Of a stretch of 55,995 nucleotides of DNA, positions 10,995 through 55,995 are shown piece after piece. A program made the position numbers and the translations under genes. The notes beneath the pieces were generated by a model that made no database searches, was not told the origin of the DNA, and worked only from the letters and a program-made list of their open reading frames with translations. Origin of the DNA: an uncultured Rhodospirillales bacterium (GTDB lineage: Bacteria; Pseudomonadota; Alphaproteobacteria; Acetobacterales; Acetobacteraceae); NCBI GenBank assembly GCA_903835235.1, contig CAILMF010000025.1, forward strand, positions 1 to 55,995. The letters are read 5' to 3'. The stretch's first letter is position 1. Each line of letters starts with the position of its first letter.

Positions 10995-11109
10995 TACAGC
11001 ACTATCCGCTCACGCTGAATCAGCGTGAGCGGATTTCGTGCTGTAGCTTCAATAGGTTGCAGAGCACGAAATCCGTTCTGATGATTCCATCAGAACGGAT
11101 ATTGCTCTA
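10995..11109. mobile_element. Two-hairpin MITE-like palindromic element, copy 1
   Basis: A 115-bp compound element. Hairpin 1 (10995-11045) has outer arms TACAGCAC/GTGCTGTA and inner 14-bp arms ATCCGCTCACGCTG/CAGCGTGAGCGGAT. A spacer with TTCAATAG follows. Hairpin 2 (11061-11108) has outer arms AGAGCA/TGCTCT and 13-bp inner arms ATCCGTTCTGATG/CATCAGAACGGAT. Both ends are TA. The right end supplies the TAG stop of the MBL-rhodanese gene. A near-identical copy lies at 34493-34607. Non-coding; origin as an IS630-linked MITE is inferred. Confidence 0.75.
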
Positions 11110-13822: not shown

Positions 13823-15253
13823 ATGACCGACCTGCTCTCGCTCTCGGCCACCCAGGCGGCCGCGCTGATCCGCCGGCGCCGGCTTTCCCCGGTGGAGTAC
13901 GTGCAGGCGGTGCTGGACGGGATCGCCCGGGTGCAGCCGGCGCTGAACTGCTTCGTCACCGTGCTGGAGGAGCGGGCGCTGGCCGCGGCGCGCGCCGCCG
14001 AGGCCGCCGTGATGGCCGGCGACGCGCTGGGACCGCTGCACGGCGTGCCGATCCACATCAAGGACCAGCTGGACACCAAGGGCATCCTGACCACCCACGG
14101 CAGCGCGATCTTCGCGGACAACATCCCGGCGCGGGACGACATCATCGTGCAGCGGCTGCGCGCCGCCGGCGCGATCCTGGTCGGCAAGACGCGCCTGCCG
14201 GAGTTCGGCAACAAGGCGCTGACGGATGGCCCGAGCTTCGGCACCACGCGCAACCCCTGGGACCTCTCGCGCACTTCGGGCGGTTCCTCCGGCGGCGCGG
14301 CGGCGGCGCTGGCCGCGGGCATCGCGCCCTTCGGCGTGGGCACGGATGGCGCGGGCAGCATCCGCATTCCCGCGGCCAGCTGCGGCGTGGTGGGGCTGAA
14401 GCCGACGCTGGGCCTGGTGCCGTGGGAGGGCGCCAGCGACGCCTTCGGCAACTACACCTATGCCGGGCCGATGAGCCGCAGCGTCACCGATTCAGCGCTG
14501 CTGCTGAGCGTGATGCAGGGGCCGAGCGAGCGCGACCCCTGGACCCTGGCCGGCGCGCGGCAGAGCCAGGTCTCGCCGCGCCTGGTGGGCCATGACCTGC
14601 ACGGGCTGCGCGTCGGCTTCATCCGCCTGGCCGCCAACCCGCAGCTGGACCCGGATTTCGAGCGTGACACCCGCGCCAGCCTGGACGCCTTCGCCGCGCT
14701 TGGTGCCGAGGTGGAGGAAGTGACCGACGCGATCGACTGGATGGAGATGCCGGGCCGCGTGATGTACCAGGGCAACTACGCCGTCGCGATGCAGAAGCAC
14801 CTGGCGCAATGGGCCAACCAGATGGACCCGACGCTGCTGGCCTGGGTCGAGCGCGGCAGCCAATTCAGCATGGCCGAGTTCCGCCAGGGCCAATACGCCC
14901 GCACCACGCTGTTCCGCGCCATTCAGGCGCTGTTCGAGCGGTATGACGTGCTGGTCTCGCCGTCGCTGGCGTGCACCGCGCTGCCGGCGGATTTCGACGC
15001 GGCGAATGACGAGGTGGTGATCAACGGCGTGACGTGCGGCATCACCCGGCAGAGCTCCAGCGCCTATGCCTATCCGTTCAACCTGACGGGCCACCCCGCG
15101 CTGACGCTGCCGGCCGGGTTGGCGCGCGACGGCCTGCCGACGGCGGTGCAGCTGATCGGGCCGTGGGGTGGCGACATGGACCTGCTGCGCCTGGGCAGCC
15201 TGCTGGAACAGGCGCGGCCCTGGGCCGGGCGCCGCCCCGCGACGCATGCCTGA
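13823..15253 (+). CDS. Amidase (amidase-signature family)
   Basis: A 476-aa amidase-signature hydrolase. The Ser-cisSer-Lys triad is visible: Lys80 in HIKDQLD, the cis-Ser in GGSSGG (~155) and the nucleophile Ser179 in TDGAGSIRIP. It hydrolyses amide bonds to a carboxylate and ammonia or amine; substrate cannot be told from sequence. No signal peptide, so it acts in the cytoplasm, probably on imported amides given the surrounding binding proteins. The last codons ACG CAT GCC TGA lie in the first unit of a 57-bp tandem repeat, so the C-terminus may have been altered by the repeat. Confidence 0.9.
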   Translation: MTDLLSLSATQAAALIRRRRLSPVEYVQAVLDGIARVQPALNCFVTVLEERALAAARAAEAAVMAGDALGPLHGVPIHIKDQLDTKGILTTHGSAIFADNIPARDDIIVQRLRAAGAILVGKTRLPEFGNKALTDGPSFGTTRNPWDLSRTSGGSSGGAAAALAAGIAPFGVGTDGAGSIRIPAASCGVVGLKPTLGLVPWEGASDAFGNYTYAGPMSRSVTDSALLLSVMQGPSERDPWTLAGARQSQVSPRLVGHDLHGLRVGFIRLAANPQLDPDFERDTRASLDAFAALGAEVEEVTDAIDWMEMPGRVMYQGNYAVAMQKHLAQWANQMDPTLLAWVERGSQFSMAEFRQGQYARTTLFRAIQALFERYDVLVSPSLACTALPADFDAANDEVVINGVTCGITRQSSSAYAYPFNLTGHPALTLPAGLARDGLPTAVQLIGPWGGDMDLLRLGSLLEQARPWAGRRPATHA

Positions 15254-15414
15254 GCGGCTGATTCACGGCTGCGCGCCCTGCGGCGCTACGCCGATCAGAC
15301 GCATGCCTGAGCGGCTGATTCACGGCTACGCGCCATGCGGCGCTACGCCGATCAGACGCATGCCTGAGCGGCTGATTCACGGCTACGCGCCCTGCGGCGC
15401 TACGCCGATCAGAC
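15244..15414. repeat. Three tandem copies of a 57-bp repeat
   Basis: Units at 15244-15300, 15301-15357 and 15358-15414 differ by only a few bases. Each begins GCATGCCTGAGCGGCTGATT and ends CGCTACGCCGATCAGACGC-like. Inside, CTGAT/ATCAG and GCGCC/GGCGC inverted repeats predict a hairpin. The unit shares both ends (TGAGCGGCTGATTCACG and CGATCAGACGCTA) with the reverse complement of a single-copy element at 36907-36957. It fills the whole gap between the convergent amidase and aminotransferase genes. The 57-bp period is divisible by three, but neither strand shows a convincing gene. Confidence 0.93.
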
Positions 15415-15415
15415 G

Positions 15416-16642
15416 CTACATGCGTGACACCGCGCGAAAACCGGCCTCGGCCGCTTCCAGCCCGCGGTCGATATCCGCCGGCCCATGCGCGGTGCTGAGG
15501 AACATGTTGTGCTTGGGGTGGAAATAGGCGCCCGCCCGCAGCGCCGCCGAGCAGAAGGCGTTGCCGCGGCGGAAATCGGCATCGCCGTCGAACAGCATCA
15601 GCGGCATCTGCGCCGGCCCGCTATGCGTCACGCCCACGCCGTATTGCGCCGCCAGCGCGGAAAGCCCAGCGCGCAGCCGCTCGCCCATCGCCGCCATCAC
15701 GGCCGGGCCGTCCACGCGCTGCAACTCGCGCAGCGTGGCCAGAGACGCCGCCATGCTCGTGGCTTCGGCCCAGAAGCTGCCGGTGGTGAAGACGCGCGCC
15801 GCCGCGTCCCTCCATTTCTCCGCGCCGGTCACGGCGGAAAGCGCGTAGCCATTGGCAATCGCCTTGCTCCACGCGGAAAAATCCGGCCGCACGCCATAGG
15901 CTTCCCAACTGCCGCCCAGATGCAGGCGGAAGCCGGCGCGCACGTCGTCCAGTATCAGCGCCGCGCCGGCCTGGTCGCACAGCGCGCGCAGCCCCTGGGC
16001 ATAGTCGCGCGTCGGCAGTTCCAGCGCGCGCGCCATGTCGTGGCGGAAGGCGCTGGCCAGCACGGCGGCGCAGTCATCGCCTGCCTCGGCCAGCGCCGCC
16101 CGCACGCTGTCCAGGTCGCCATGGTCGTAGTGGATGATGTGCGCGCGGTCCTCCGCCGTAACCCCCACCAGTGAAGGCGAGCACCACGGCGCCGCGCCAT
16201 GGTAGCTGCCGCGCGCCAGCAGCACCTTGCGCCGCCCCGTGCCGGCGCGGGCGATGGTGACACAGGCGGTCGTCGCATCCGTGCCGTTCTTCTCGAACAG
16301 GCACCAGTCGGCGGCCGGCAGCATGCCCGTCAGCTGCTCGGCCAGCTCCACCAGCACCGCGCCCGGCCCGTTCATGGTGGCGCCCTGGGCCGCCTGGGCG
16401 CGCACCGCCTCCTCCACCGCGGGGTGATGGTGGCCCAGCACGATCGGCCCCCAGCTGCACATGAAGTCCACCACTTCATTGCCGTCCACATCCCACAGCC
16501 GGCAGCCGCGGGCGCGGGCGAAGAATTGCGGGTAGCCGTCGGGCAGGTTGGCGGCGTTCAGGTGGCCCCACATGCCGCCGGGGATCACCTTGGCCGCCCG
16601 CACGCGCAGCGCCGCATCCGCTGAATTCAACCGCTCGGCCAT
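15416..16642 (-). CDS. Class III PLP aminotransferase, glutamate-1-semialdehyde aminomutase-like
   Basis: A 408-aa fold-type I PLP enzyme. The Schiff-base lysine is Lys260 in FSAWSKAIANGY; the pyridine-binding Asp is in ALILDDVRAGFR (~232). The N-terminal PGGMWGHL and GSYHGA motifs are typical of HemL-like class III enzymes. It is not a clear HemL, because the GSGTEA-type loop is replaced by FEKNGTDATT and the context is catabolic; amine or beta-amino-acid transamination is more likely. ATG 16642 follows AAGGAGTGTGACC; a GTG 6 bp upstream is in frame. The stop lies next to the tandem repeats. Confidence 0.87.
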   Translation of the reverse strand: MAERLNSADAALRVRAAKVIPGGMWGHLNAANLPDGYPQFFARARGCRLWDVDGNEVVDFMCSWGPIVLGHHHPAVEEAVRAQAAQGATMNGPGAVLVELAEQLTGMLPAADWCLFEKNGTDATTACVTIARAGTGRRKVLLARGSYHGAAPWCSPSLVGVTAEDRAHIIHYDHGDLDSVRAALAEAGDDCAAVLASAFRHDMARALELPTRDYAQGLRALCDQAGAALILDDVRAGFRLHLGGSWEAYGVRPDFSAWSKAIANGYALSAVTGAEKWRDAAARVFTTGSFWAEATSMAASLATLRELQRVDGPAVMAAMGERLRAGLSALAAQYGVGVTHSGPAQMPLMLFDGDADFRRGNAFCSAALRAGAYFHPKHNMFLSTAHGPADIDRGLEAAEAGFRAVSRM

Positions 16643-23515: not shown

Positions 23516-23620
23516 CTAGAGTGTGATCGTCGCAGGCGGAATCGCCGGAGACGTGAATCACGCGACAAGACAAGGAGCGGGAGGCGGCCAGGCGCGGCTG
23601 TCTGCGCCTGGCGGTCTCTA
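23516..23620. repeat. CTAG-bounded palindromic repeat (module B)
   Basis: A 105-bp stretch starting CTAGAGTGTGATCGTCGCAG and ending GTCTCTAG. GTGTGAT/ATCACGC form outer arms, CGTC/GACG and GGCGG/CGCC inner arms. A second part has CCAGGCGC/GCGCCTGG arms. Closely related copies are at 36909-37013 and 47649-47746. Its left CTAG sits before the GT-C gene and its right CTAG supplies the TAG stop of the upstream DprE2-like gene, so it separates two members of the glycan operon. Confidence 0.75.
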
Positions 23621-34492: not shown

Positions 34493-34607
34493 TACAGCAC
34501 TATCCGCTCACGCTGAATCAGCGCGAGCGGATTTCGTGCTGTATTTTCAATAGATGGGAGAGCAAGAAATCCATTCTGAAGATTCCATCAGAACGGATAT
34601 TGCTCTA
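34493..34607. mobile_element. Two-hairpin MITE-like palindromic element, copy 2
   Basis: Same 115-bp architecture as the element at 10995-11109: TACAGCAC...GTGCTGTA (34493-34543), spacer with TTCAATAG, then AGAGCA...TGCTCT (34559-34606), with TA at both outer ends. Hairpin 1 has one and hairpin 2 two mismatches, so this copy is decaying. Its right end supplies the TAG stop of the small exported-protein gene. Confidence 0.75.
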
Positions 34608-36022: not shown

Positions 36023-36808
36023 ATGACCGATTTCAGCACCCTCGAAGCCTTCACCGTCGAGATCGCCGACCACGTGGCGACGGTGACGATCCGCCGCCCG
36101 CCGGTGAACGCGCAGAACCGCCAGTTCCGCGAGGAGATCGTCCGCATCTTCGATACGCTGCACGACATGGCCGAGGTGCGCGCCGTGGTGCTGACCGGCG
36201 ATGGCCGCGCCTTCTCGGCCGGCGCCGACCTGCGCGAGCGGCCCAACCTGGGCAACGAGGCCGGCGCCTATCCGCGCCACAACCGCCTGGTGCGCGCCGC
36301 CTTCGACGCGGTCATGGAATGCGAGAAGCCGGTCATCGCCGCGGTCAACGGCGCGGCCATCGGCGCCGGCTGCGTGCTGGCGCTGTGCTGCGACATCATC
36401 ATCGCCAGCGACAACGCCTTCCTGTCGATGACCGAGGTGGATGTCGGCCTGGCCGGCGGTGTCAAGCATGTGCGCCGCCACTTCGGCGAAAGCGATGCGC
36501 GGCTGATGATCTACACCGCCCGGCGCATCACCGGGCCGGAGCTGCTGCGGATGAACGTGGCTTCCGCCTGCGTGGCGCCGGACGCGCTGATGCCCACCGC
36601 CATGGGCATTGCGCGGGAGATCGCCGGCAAGGTGCCGCTGGCGGTGCGCGCGGCCAAGCGGTCCTTCACCGTCACCGAGGAATTGCCGCTGCACGAGGGC
36701 TACCGCTACGAGCAGTCGCAGACGGTCGCGCTTTCCACCACCGAGGACACGCGCGAGGCGCAGCTGGCCTTCGCCGAAAAGCGCAAGCCGAGCTTCACCG
36801 GGCGCTAG
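36023..36808 (+). CDS. Enoyl-CoA hydratase/isomerase family protein
   Basis: A 261-aa crotonase-fold protein. The oxyanion segments are FSAGADLRERP and NGAAIGAGCVLALCCD; Glu138 in SMTEVDVGLAGG sits where the first catalytic Glu of hydratases lies, whereas the second hydratase Glu position has no acid, so isomerase, hydrolase or lyase activity is possible. It hydrates or rearranges acyl-CoA intermediates. Divergent from the TfdA-like gene with ~155 bp between starts. Its TAG stop is the CTAG at the start of a palindromic element. Confidence 0.88.
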   Translation: MTDFSTLEAFTVEIADHVATVTIRRPPVNAQNRQFREEIVRIFDTLHDMAEVRAVVLTGDGRAFSAGADLRERPNLGNEAGAYPRHNRLVRAAFDAVMECEKPVIAAVNGAAIGAGCVLALCCDIIIASDNAFLSMTEVDVGLAGGVKHVRRHFGESDARLMIYTARRITGPELLRMNVASACVAPDALMPTAMGIAREIAGKVPLAVRAAKRSFTVTEELPLHEGYRYEQSQTVALSTTEDTREAQLAFAEKRKPSFTGR

Positions 36809-36907
36809 AGCAATATGCGTTCAGATGGAATCATCTGAACGCATATTGCTCTAGATTCAATGTCTTCCAGAGCACGAGCTGCGTCCAAGTGGACGCAGCG
36901 TGCTCTA
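36806..36907. mobile_element. Two-hairpin MITE-like palindromic element, copy 3 (variant stems)
   Basis: Two palindromes joined by a TTCAAT-containing spacer, with CTAG at both outer ends (36805-36808, 36905-36908) and at the inner junction. Hairpin 1 (36807-36852) has perfect arms of 20+ bp beginning AGAGCAATATGCGTTCAGAT. Hairpin 2 (36869-36906) has AGAGCACG/CGTGCTCT outer and GCTGCGTCC/GGACGCAGC inner arms. The stems differ in sequence from copies 1 and 2 but the architecture and spacer are the same. It lies between convergent genes and may also terminate both. Confidence 0.8.
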
Positions 36908-36908
36908 G

Positions 36909-37013
36909 CGTCTGATCGTCGCCGGTGGAATCACCGGCGGCGTGAATCAGCCGCTCAAACAACGGCTTGGAGTCTGGCAGGCGCTTCTGTCTGCGCCTGG
37001 CAGACTGCGGCAG
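36909..37013. repeat. Palindromic repeat module B, copy next to MITE copy 3
   Basis: Starts CGTCTGATCGTCGCCGGTGG and continues GAATCACCGGCGGCGTGAATC, AGCCGCTC, with CTGAT/ATCAG and CCGGTG/CACCGG arms; its second part has GTCTGGCAGGCGC and GCGCCTGGCAGAC arms. The reverse complement of 36907-36957 shares its termini with the 57-bp tandem unit at 15244-15414; the second part matches 47712-47746 and 23588-23618. Confidence 0.7.
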
Positions 37014-47559: not shown

Positions 47560-47600
47560 CCGCGCATGCCATCAGGGGGGGCGCCGCAGGCTTCGACCCT

Positions 47601-47648
47601 AGAGCAAGAAATCCGTTCTGATGATTGCATCAGAACGGATATTGCTCT
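47601..47648. mobile_element. Single-hairpin MITE-like element
   Basis: A 48-bp palindrome with AGAGCA/TGCTCT ends and 13-bp arms ATCCGTTCTGATG and CATCAGAACGGAT, directly after CTA (CTAG at 47599-47602). It matches hairpin 2 of the elements at 10995-11109 and 34493-34607 almost base for base, showing that this hairpin also occurs alone. It may end the amidase transcript, 40 bp after its stop. Confidence 0.75.
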
Positions 47649-47746
47649 GGAGCGTGATCGTTGCAGGCGGAAACGCCGGAGACGTGAATCACGCGACAAA
47701 ACAAGGCGCCAGGGTCTGCCAGGCGCTTCCATCTGCGCCTGACAGA
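47649..47746. repeat. Palindromic repeat module B, third copy
   Basis: Begins GGAGCGTGATCGTTGCAGGC and continues GGAAACGCCGGAGACGTGAATCACGC in pieces with GCGTGAT/ATCACGC arms, then GGGTCTGCCAGGCGC and GCGCCTGACAGACCC arms. Near-identical to 23516-23620. The following 47747-47934 contains GCAATATGCGTACACATAT, similar to the MITE terminus, and no gene I can support. Confidence 0.7.
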
Positions 47747-47934
47747 CCCCAGCGCAATATGCGTACACATATACGCCGCTCGTGCTCCCGCGCCTCGACG
47801 ACCTTCGCCTGCCCCCAGGCAACCGGCTGGCGGCCCGCAAGGGCGACCGGGCCGGGGTTCGATACCCTTGGGTTGTTGACTCCGCGGCCAGTCCACCGCA
47901 ACGGTGCAGAAGTCTGTGCGGGGCGAGATCAGAC

Positions 47935-55673: not shown

Positions 55674-55872
55674 CGCAGGCCGTGCGCCATCTGCATGGAC
55701 GGCTGTCGCCTGGGTCGCGTTGCCAACCCTCATCCGGCACCATATCCTAACCCACCGCCGGCATCAGGTAGTGCCAGCGTTCATCGCCAGCACCGCCACG
55801 GCCGCGCGCAGGGTTTTTGGAGGCGTCCAACTGCCTTTACACCACCACGTAGAACGCTAGAGCATGATGCGT
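55674..55872. other. Non-coding gap after the CHAT gene
   Basis: About 180 bp between the CHAT stop and the CTAG at 55857-55860. No gene on either strand is convincing; the base composition is less GC-rich than the flanks. GCGCAGGGTTTTTGG contains a T5 run but no good stem precedes it. The right boundary is the likely end of an IS630-type element. Confidence 0.5.
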
Positions 55873-55995
55873 TTAGGTTCGGCTATATCCTGAATGGGTT
55901 AGGTAATTGGTGCACTCTGCTGGTGTGTAGGTGCCGAGGAGTGTGCCGATAGTCGCGCAGACCGCGTCGCTGGTCCTGGCTGCAGCCTTTCGGAG
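55858..55995 (-). mobile_element. End of an IS630-family insertion sequence (continues past the window)
   Basis: The outer boundary is CTAG at 55857-55860, the preferred IS630 target with TA duplicated. Inward the terminus reads GAGCATGATGCGTTTAGGTT. On the minus strand, a transposase C-terminus is open from the window edge to TAA at 55875-55873. The terminus is 15/20 identical to the terminus of the palindromic element at 36808, linking the IS to the small repeats. Confidence 0.72.
55873..55995 (-). CDS. IS630-family transposase, C-terminal fragment (5' end outside window)
   Basis: The last 40 codons read LRKAAARTSDAVCATIGTLL then GTYTPAECTNYLTHSGYSRT and TAA. The pattern of an IG-LL helix, TPxEC-NY and a terminal xGY is the characteristic C-terminus of IS630 (Tc1/mariner-like) transposases. 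The catalytic DDE residues lie outside the window. It is not known if the full gene is intact. The stop is 14 bp from the inferred element end, as usual for IS630 elements. Confidence 0.78.
   Translation of the reverse strand, partial: LRKAAARTSDAVCATIGTLLGTYTPAECTNYLTHSGYSRT

Follow-up and report, generated by a model that had tools for sequence, protein, structure and literature searches.

What is the short palindromic unit that begins at the stop codon of a gene of an uncultured Rhodospirillales bacterium, and how did it come to lie there? The window, that is, the whole stretch of DNA that was analysed, is 55,995 nt long, and the unit occupies positions 36806-36907. It is very probably a non-autonomous MITE of the IS630/Tc1-mariner kind, whose ends would be diverged copies of IS630 ends and which would have inserted at a TA (preferably within CTAG) that was duplicated. 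Each half of the unit resembles an IS630 end doubled back upon itself. The left half would comprise an end sequence of about 27 bp, including a GAATC box, followed by its mirror copy, and a short linker would join the two halves. A transposase of the IS630 family, supplied from elsewhere in the cell, would bind both outer ends, move the unit and join it to a TA. We infer that this transposase acts in trans, and that copies which spread retain their hairpin symmetry, whereas dead copies lose it. The following features of the window bear on the argument.

36806-36907, plus strand: two-hairpin MITE of type I (from sequence, genome BLAST and fold)
36806-36853, plus strand: left hairpin, a perfect palindrome TAGAGCAATATGCGTTCAGATG..CTCTA, with GAATC at positions 23-27 from the terminal TA
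36854-36868, plus strand: linker of 15 nt, GATTCAATGTCTTCC
36869-36907, plus strand: right hairpin, whose outer end read inwards is TAGAGCACGCTGCGTCCAC
36023-36808, plus strand: upstream gene (open reading frame) with the stop codon TAG at 36806-36808
36906-37006, plus strand: D1 repeat (a second, abundant family with two hairpins), left end TAGCGTCTGATCGTCGCCGGTGGAATC, with a TA in common with the type I MITE
23517-23620, plus strand: D1 copy with CTAG at both ends
47600-47649, minus strand: left hairpin of the type II/III kind, adjoining a D1 copy
47647-47752, plus strand: D1 copy
10995-11109, minus strand: type III two-hairpin MITE with TA at both ends
34493-34607, minus strand: type III two-hairpin MITE with TA at both ends
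55858-55995, minus strand: trailing (transposase-stop side) 138 nt of an IS630; the contig ends inside the IS

The 102-nt unit reads TA-GAGC...GCTC-TA. A sequence-only reading of this DNA had described it as a single palindrome; the unit is indeed palindromic, but it is made of two hairpins around the linker, and the perfect inverted repeat GAGCAATATGCGTTCAG (partner arm 36835-36851) is confined to the 48-nt left hairpin. The two outermost ends of the 102-nt unit match each other at 14 of 19 positions. TA, within CTAG, stands at both ends, as that reading had it. The right TA is common to the D1 repeat, and the sequence to the right is therefore not that of the original target. On the left, the unit meets the upstream gene, whose product we take to resemble an enoyl-CoA hydratase/isomerase: the TAG stop is built from the target TA and the first G of the element. 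The counterpart of this gene in the congener G002 aligns up to 36806, then diverges and ends in CGC-TGA, not TAG. Since the element begins with G, a TAG or TAA stop codon whose TA receives the insertion ends up as TAG, and the upstream protein is unharmed. Elsewhere in the window, another palindromic repeat, with TCAGACGC at its end, occurs three times in tandem at 15241-15416 (period 57 nt), and a TA follows the last copy.

The element is one of many. BLAST of the element against its own genome gave 83 matches, many of them the palindrome aligned to its own opposite strand, and the stretches taken from this genome contain 59 places of types I-III, partial ones counted. Type I has GCG stems and is old, type II has CCG stems, and type III combines a CCG left hairpin with a different right hairpin and an inverted linker. 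A structure-aware search of the same genome, with a model built from 15 hairpins (two from this genome), found at least 50 hairpins. A strict palindrome pattern matched the window copy alone, as the inner arm is asymmetric in most other copies; it is thus no measure of copy number. The units are short (102-115 nt), non-coding, repeated and bounded by inverted ends, as is the IS630-type MITE RUP. Among 47 copies near full length and above the score limit, both terminal TAs were retained in 3 of 20 of type I, 9 of 16 of type II and 9 of 11 of type III, which bears out the TA flanks expected on the sequence-only reading; CTAG lay on both sides in 12 of these 21 copies. Tandems with one common TA were also present (type III-TA-type II at L048 and L053, type II-TA-type I at L025), as expected from repeated insertion into a terminal TA.

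Empty sites, likewise expected on that reading, were found in relatives. The flanks of 17 sites, picked for non-repetitive flanks and including two tandem composites, were joined and searched in five congeners. Matches spanning the joint were obtained for nine sites, seven with a single TA (five clean, two weaker) and two without TA; the other eight gave no spanning match in the five congeners. The clean empty sites are site 30 (G002, CTGCCTAGGTTG), site 12 (G005), site 7 (G001), site 22 (G001, G003 and G005) and site 28 (G002, with TGA in G005 at this site). TA was kept in the weaker matches of site 27 (74% identity) and the L048 tandem (gapped alignment), and the joint was contiguous without TA at site 32 (G001) and site 17 (G005). 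At sites 7 and 22, the type I copy of the host is without its right TA and the congener shows a single TA. These results support insertion at TA; as read from sequence, a duplication of TA would be indistinguishable from non-duplicating insertion of a unit that ends in TA.

Some of these sites are occupied otherwise in the congeners. Site 17 carries other inserts in G001 (about 143 nt) and G002 (about 104 nt), and at the L053 site G002 has one hairpin, which is like that of the type I right end. Different inserts stand behind the same TA at sites 17 and L053 (L211 and L214, both in G002, and L215 in G001), and such TA sites therefore look like repeated landing places.

A partner with a putative transposase is present in the genome of the MITE. 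An IS630-type end follows CTA at the right edge of the window (55857), as had been noticed from the sequence alone, and it is the trailing end of an IS found in at least seven places of the genome. The agreement between 36805-36824 and 55857-55876, first given as 15 of 20 positions, is 17 of 20 on recount (16 of 20 in a comparison of 38 ends). Copy C72, complete to the contig end, measures 1054 nt from TA to TA, with the ends TAGAGCATGATGCGTTTAGG and TAGAGCGGGATGCGATCAGG. The IS630 HTH and DDE_3 parts of the putative transposase are in different reading frames, with the break at a run of eight A; at L010, an IS630 transposase split in this way lies at 2036-2124. In several relatives, the open frame at the match is about 200 aa long, which suggests that split frames are common in the related IS630 clade. 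TA flanked the IS on all 12 sides read (seven of seven left, five of five right), extended to CTA in six of seven left flanks and to TAG in three of five right flanks. At L013, an IS copy is placed precisely at a hairpin's terminal TA, and at L020 another immediately precedes a D1 repeat. The ends of two other DDE_3 elements of the genome (C77 and C15) were not recognised.

Related IS630s were compared at both ends, which were found in 57 of 80 named loci (44 distinct pairs); CTAG surrounds 35 of the 57. GAATC stands at positions 23-27 in 37 of the 44 distinct leading (transposase-start) ends versus none of the 44 trailing ends, a count made without any score that rewards GAATC. In this genome, the box recurs at these positions in the left ends of D1 and of types I to III, and type III has it at its right end too. 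In other genomes, it stands there in the left ends of elements of G039, G078, G094 and G099, with GAGTC in G067. For a quantitative comparison, 110 ends (55 pairs) were assembled from 40 of the 44 named-locus pairs and 15 family pairs. The latter came from 30 fetched IS630 loci of the host's family, 15 of which gave recognisable end pairs; these were found by a GAATC-rewarding score, so that matches of GAATC-bearing MITE ends are favoured. Positions 7-27 were shuffled, the maximum over all 110 ends was taken, and the share of shuffles reaching it was recorded.

The MITE ends resemble IS630 ends beyond chance, the type II right end only marginally (18 of 27 positions, p 0.05). The type II left end agrees at 22 of 27 with the IS630 of G034, from another genus, and the type III right end at 20 of 27 with the genome's own IS, its best match among the 110 (0 of 2000 shuffles each). 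The type I left end reaches 20 of 27 (0.0025 of shuffles) and the type I right end 19 of 27 with the IS630 of a Rubritepida MAG (0.0055). In the second family, the D1 right end (copy L163) agrees at 23 of 27 with the trailing end of an IS630 of the congener G001, and the D1a left end at 22 of 27 with an IS630 of a Rubellimicrobium MAG (0 of 2000 each). Both ends of the genome's own IS630 were found, and its transposase-start end agrees with the type I left end at 20 of 27 positions, including GAATC at 23-27, level with the best of 90 ends; the likeness of ends anticipated by the sequence-only reading thus held when the second IS end was added. Judged by these comparisons, more than one MITE family of the genome has an IS630 with like ends. 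The interior was not recognised as a remnant of internal deletion, the mirror arms and linker being without an IS counterpart by eye. Such an interior is not required of a MITE. As the interior is not IS-derived and the match to the own IS630 is partial, the MITE is no simple deletion derivative. The proposal that the own IS630 is the best match for the MITE ends was weakened: it came first or level for five of six ends among 38 IS ends, and for only some among 90 or 110.

Which IS630 moved these units is a separate matter. The MITE may have been moved from TA to TA by another IS630 lineage, the present IS copies being recent arrivals. This is a sub-case of the main explanation, whose probability overlaps with it, and we give it an even chance. 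All IS ends found in the genome, seven on the left and six on the right, are identical over the parts read, the flanking TA has been lost in most type I copies, and the IS630 that best matches the type II left end is that of G034. Moreover, no DDE_3 match was found in G003 and G004 (85 and 89% complete), yet type I-like copies are listed in G004. Against this, the own IS is the best of the 110 ends for the type III right end and ties for first place among 90 for the type I left end. Across 120 genomes of the host's family, the hairpin model matched 62 (54 of 102 genera; E-values are rough) and a related transposase was present in 57, with no significant association between the two: the transposase occurred in 33 of 62 hairpin-bearing genomes and 24 of 58 others (Fisher p 0.21), and in 15 of 24 genomes with at least 20 hairpins versus 42 of 96 (p 0.11). 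The sequence-only reading had the MITEs moved by an IS630 transposase of this genome. Its assignment to an IS630-type MITE is supported; given the G034 match and the p of 0.21, the own-genome IS630 is one candidate mover.

The fold of the element was then considered together with its change over time. As single-stranded DNA, the element folds to -42.9 kcal/mol; 200 shuffles averaged -13.0 kcal/mol, and none was as good (z -13.4). In a covariation set of 15 hairpins (14 distinct rows) from the host genus and ten other genera, two-sided changes between genera were seen in 9 of 20 pairs (23 cells, versus 1-3 cells in slid controls), and 96% of cells were paired. Within the genome, type I copies carry 25 one-sided stem changes versus one two-sided change (about 0.8 expected if independent), and type II copies carry six one-sided and three two-sided changes (0.2 expected), which is not simple decay. 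Families retain the fold, and the oldest copies lose it. Because old type I copies decay uncompensated though stems covary between genera, the fold may matter for spreading and not for the host. Two readings of its retention remain: selection on copies still able to move, and template-switch repair, a known process by which palindromes are perfected. The exact inner-outer mirror of the window copy, the sole match to the strict pattern, would fit the latter. We know of no reason in cut-and-paste transposition for palindromic halves.

The same observations bear on the proposal that the unit is a domesticated RNA-level element (a terminator or mRNA stabiliser) kept for host function, with no named means of copying. 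The very stable fold and the three two-sided changes in type II stems would suit it, as would the position at gene ends: 18 of 44 tested copies coincide with the stop of an open frame at least 150 codons long, versus 93 of 901 free TA sites. However, free CTAG sites are stop codons in 10 of 15 cases, at least as often as the copies, and target choice therefore accounts for the position; a separate preference for stop codons was dropped for the same reason. In addition, there was no Rfam match, no T-tract follows either hairpin, and type I copies lose pairing without compensation. A search for intrinsic terminators (G+C-rich stem followed by a T-run) found none at 36806-36907 and one at 36965-36982, within D1. 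A host RNA function was rejected on these grounds, and we regard it as improbable. Least probable is a REP/REPIN-type unit, in which a RAYT (Y1 tyrosine) transposase would mobilise paired hairpins in single-stranded form: a hairpin doublet of about 100 nt with compensatory stem changes resembles REPINs as described (PMC3116915), but the 99% complete genome gave no Y1_Tnp/RAYT match (PF01797; 5 of 14 controls were positive), the insertions lie at TA and the ends resemble IS630 ends, and membership in this class was set aside.

The IS630-type MITE of the window has counterparts beyond the host genome. A type II BLAST query matched at least 14 of the 120 family genomes. In the genome G112 (L298), the matches listed include 20 hairpins of equal score, many of them close to the ends of contigs, which would suit a recent burst of a twin-hairpin element; in the genome G078 (L296), twin-hairpin units form a tandem array with ends in common. 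Hairpins occur in four of 64 examined IS630 loci (of the 80 named). The IS shares a TA with a hairpin end in Azospirillum (L144), a Hyphomicrobiales MAG (L114) and Bradyrhizobium (L100), and at L085, where TG replaces the TA, a hairpin adjoins an apparent leading IS end. An IS630 locus of a Bradyrhizobium MAG (L099, 2899-2959) contains a different sort of palindrome, 61 nt long and bounded by TA. The first 18 nt of the Azospirillum element are the same as in the leading end of the IS630 of the host genome (left end 23 of 27 with that IS; 0 of 2000 shuffles), and its right end had no match among the 110 IS630 ends (p 0.6).

Relatives of the L114 element were found at 593 places in 97 plasmid records, 94 of them from Sinorhizobium or Ensifer and including pSymB of S. 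meliloti 1021. Seven were fetched (six Sinorhizobium, one Methylovirgula; best place per record), and each of them follows the two-hairpin plan and ends in TA on the right. Three carry GAATC at 23-27 and two a variant at this position; in the remaining two, the box or its variant lies one to three bases off. Their linker, GATTCTAATAAGTT, resembles that of the element, GTTTCAATAAGTTA. Rhizobium intergenic mosaic elements (RIMEs) are about 108 bp long and contain two large palindromes. Rhizobial repeats of this class were reportedly described in 1995, and we know of no transposase assigned to them. The Sinorhizobium repeats are probably RIMEs.

Together, the twin-hairpin repeats of the host's family (probably Acetobacteraceae) and of Azospirillum and the RIME-like repeats of Sinorhizobium may form one alphaproteobacterial, IS630-driven MITE superfamily with folded-back ends, whose symmetry is selected during spreading. 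We put this forward tentatively, as a possibility that falls somewhat short of even. If true, an IS630/Tc1-type system would use or profit from hairpins at its ends, as RAYT does by other chemistry, and symmetry would be renewed in active families and lost in dead copies. The IS630 assignment itself gives a testable mobiliser for the abundant intergenic palindromes of the host's family, where the model matches 54 of the 102 genera sampled, and, if the Sinorhizobium link holds, for a class of rhizobial repeats as well. With a box at a fixed position, and covarying families set against decaying copies, the question of why bacterial repeats are palindromic becomes testable.

The closest known systems include RIME and Bru-RS. 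The Sinorhizobium repeats, as probable RIMEs, share the two-hairpin layout, a comparable linker and, in the region of 23-27, GAATC or a variant of it. A literature search that covered few subscription papers found no link of RIME or Bru-RS to IS630. In the reports on RUP of pneumococcus and its IS630-Spn1, RUP is a non-coding repeat of 107 bp in about 110 copies, with IS630-like ends and insertion at TA; it is described there as an IS630-driven MITE on indirect evidence and, as of 2007, as the one bacterial repeat for which such similarity to IS ends had been reported (PMC2229807, PMC3049150). The window MITE is likewise short, non-coding and repeated, with IS630-like ends and TA. RUP is presented in those reports as a simple repeat whose terminal inverted repeats pair mutually, whereas here each half folds on itself; moreover, several end families here match several IS630 ends. 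For ISY100/IS630, transposition into a TA target, which is duplicated, has been demonstrated in vitro (PMC2170065); the target is the same here, and the ISY100 data given there concern an autonomous element, not a twin-hairpin MITE. REPINs and BIMEs, as described, consist of two repeats that form a single mobile, hairpin-forming unit with compensatory changes and are linked to RAYTs (PMC3116915); they share paired hairpins and compensatory changes with the present elements, unlike which they are tied to RAYT, not found in this genome. As far as could be seen, what is new here is the plan of a doubled, folded-back end with a leading-end box at a fixed position, together with several MITE families that match several IS630 ends and a spread across alphaproteobacteria.
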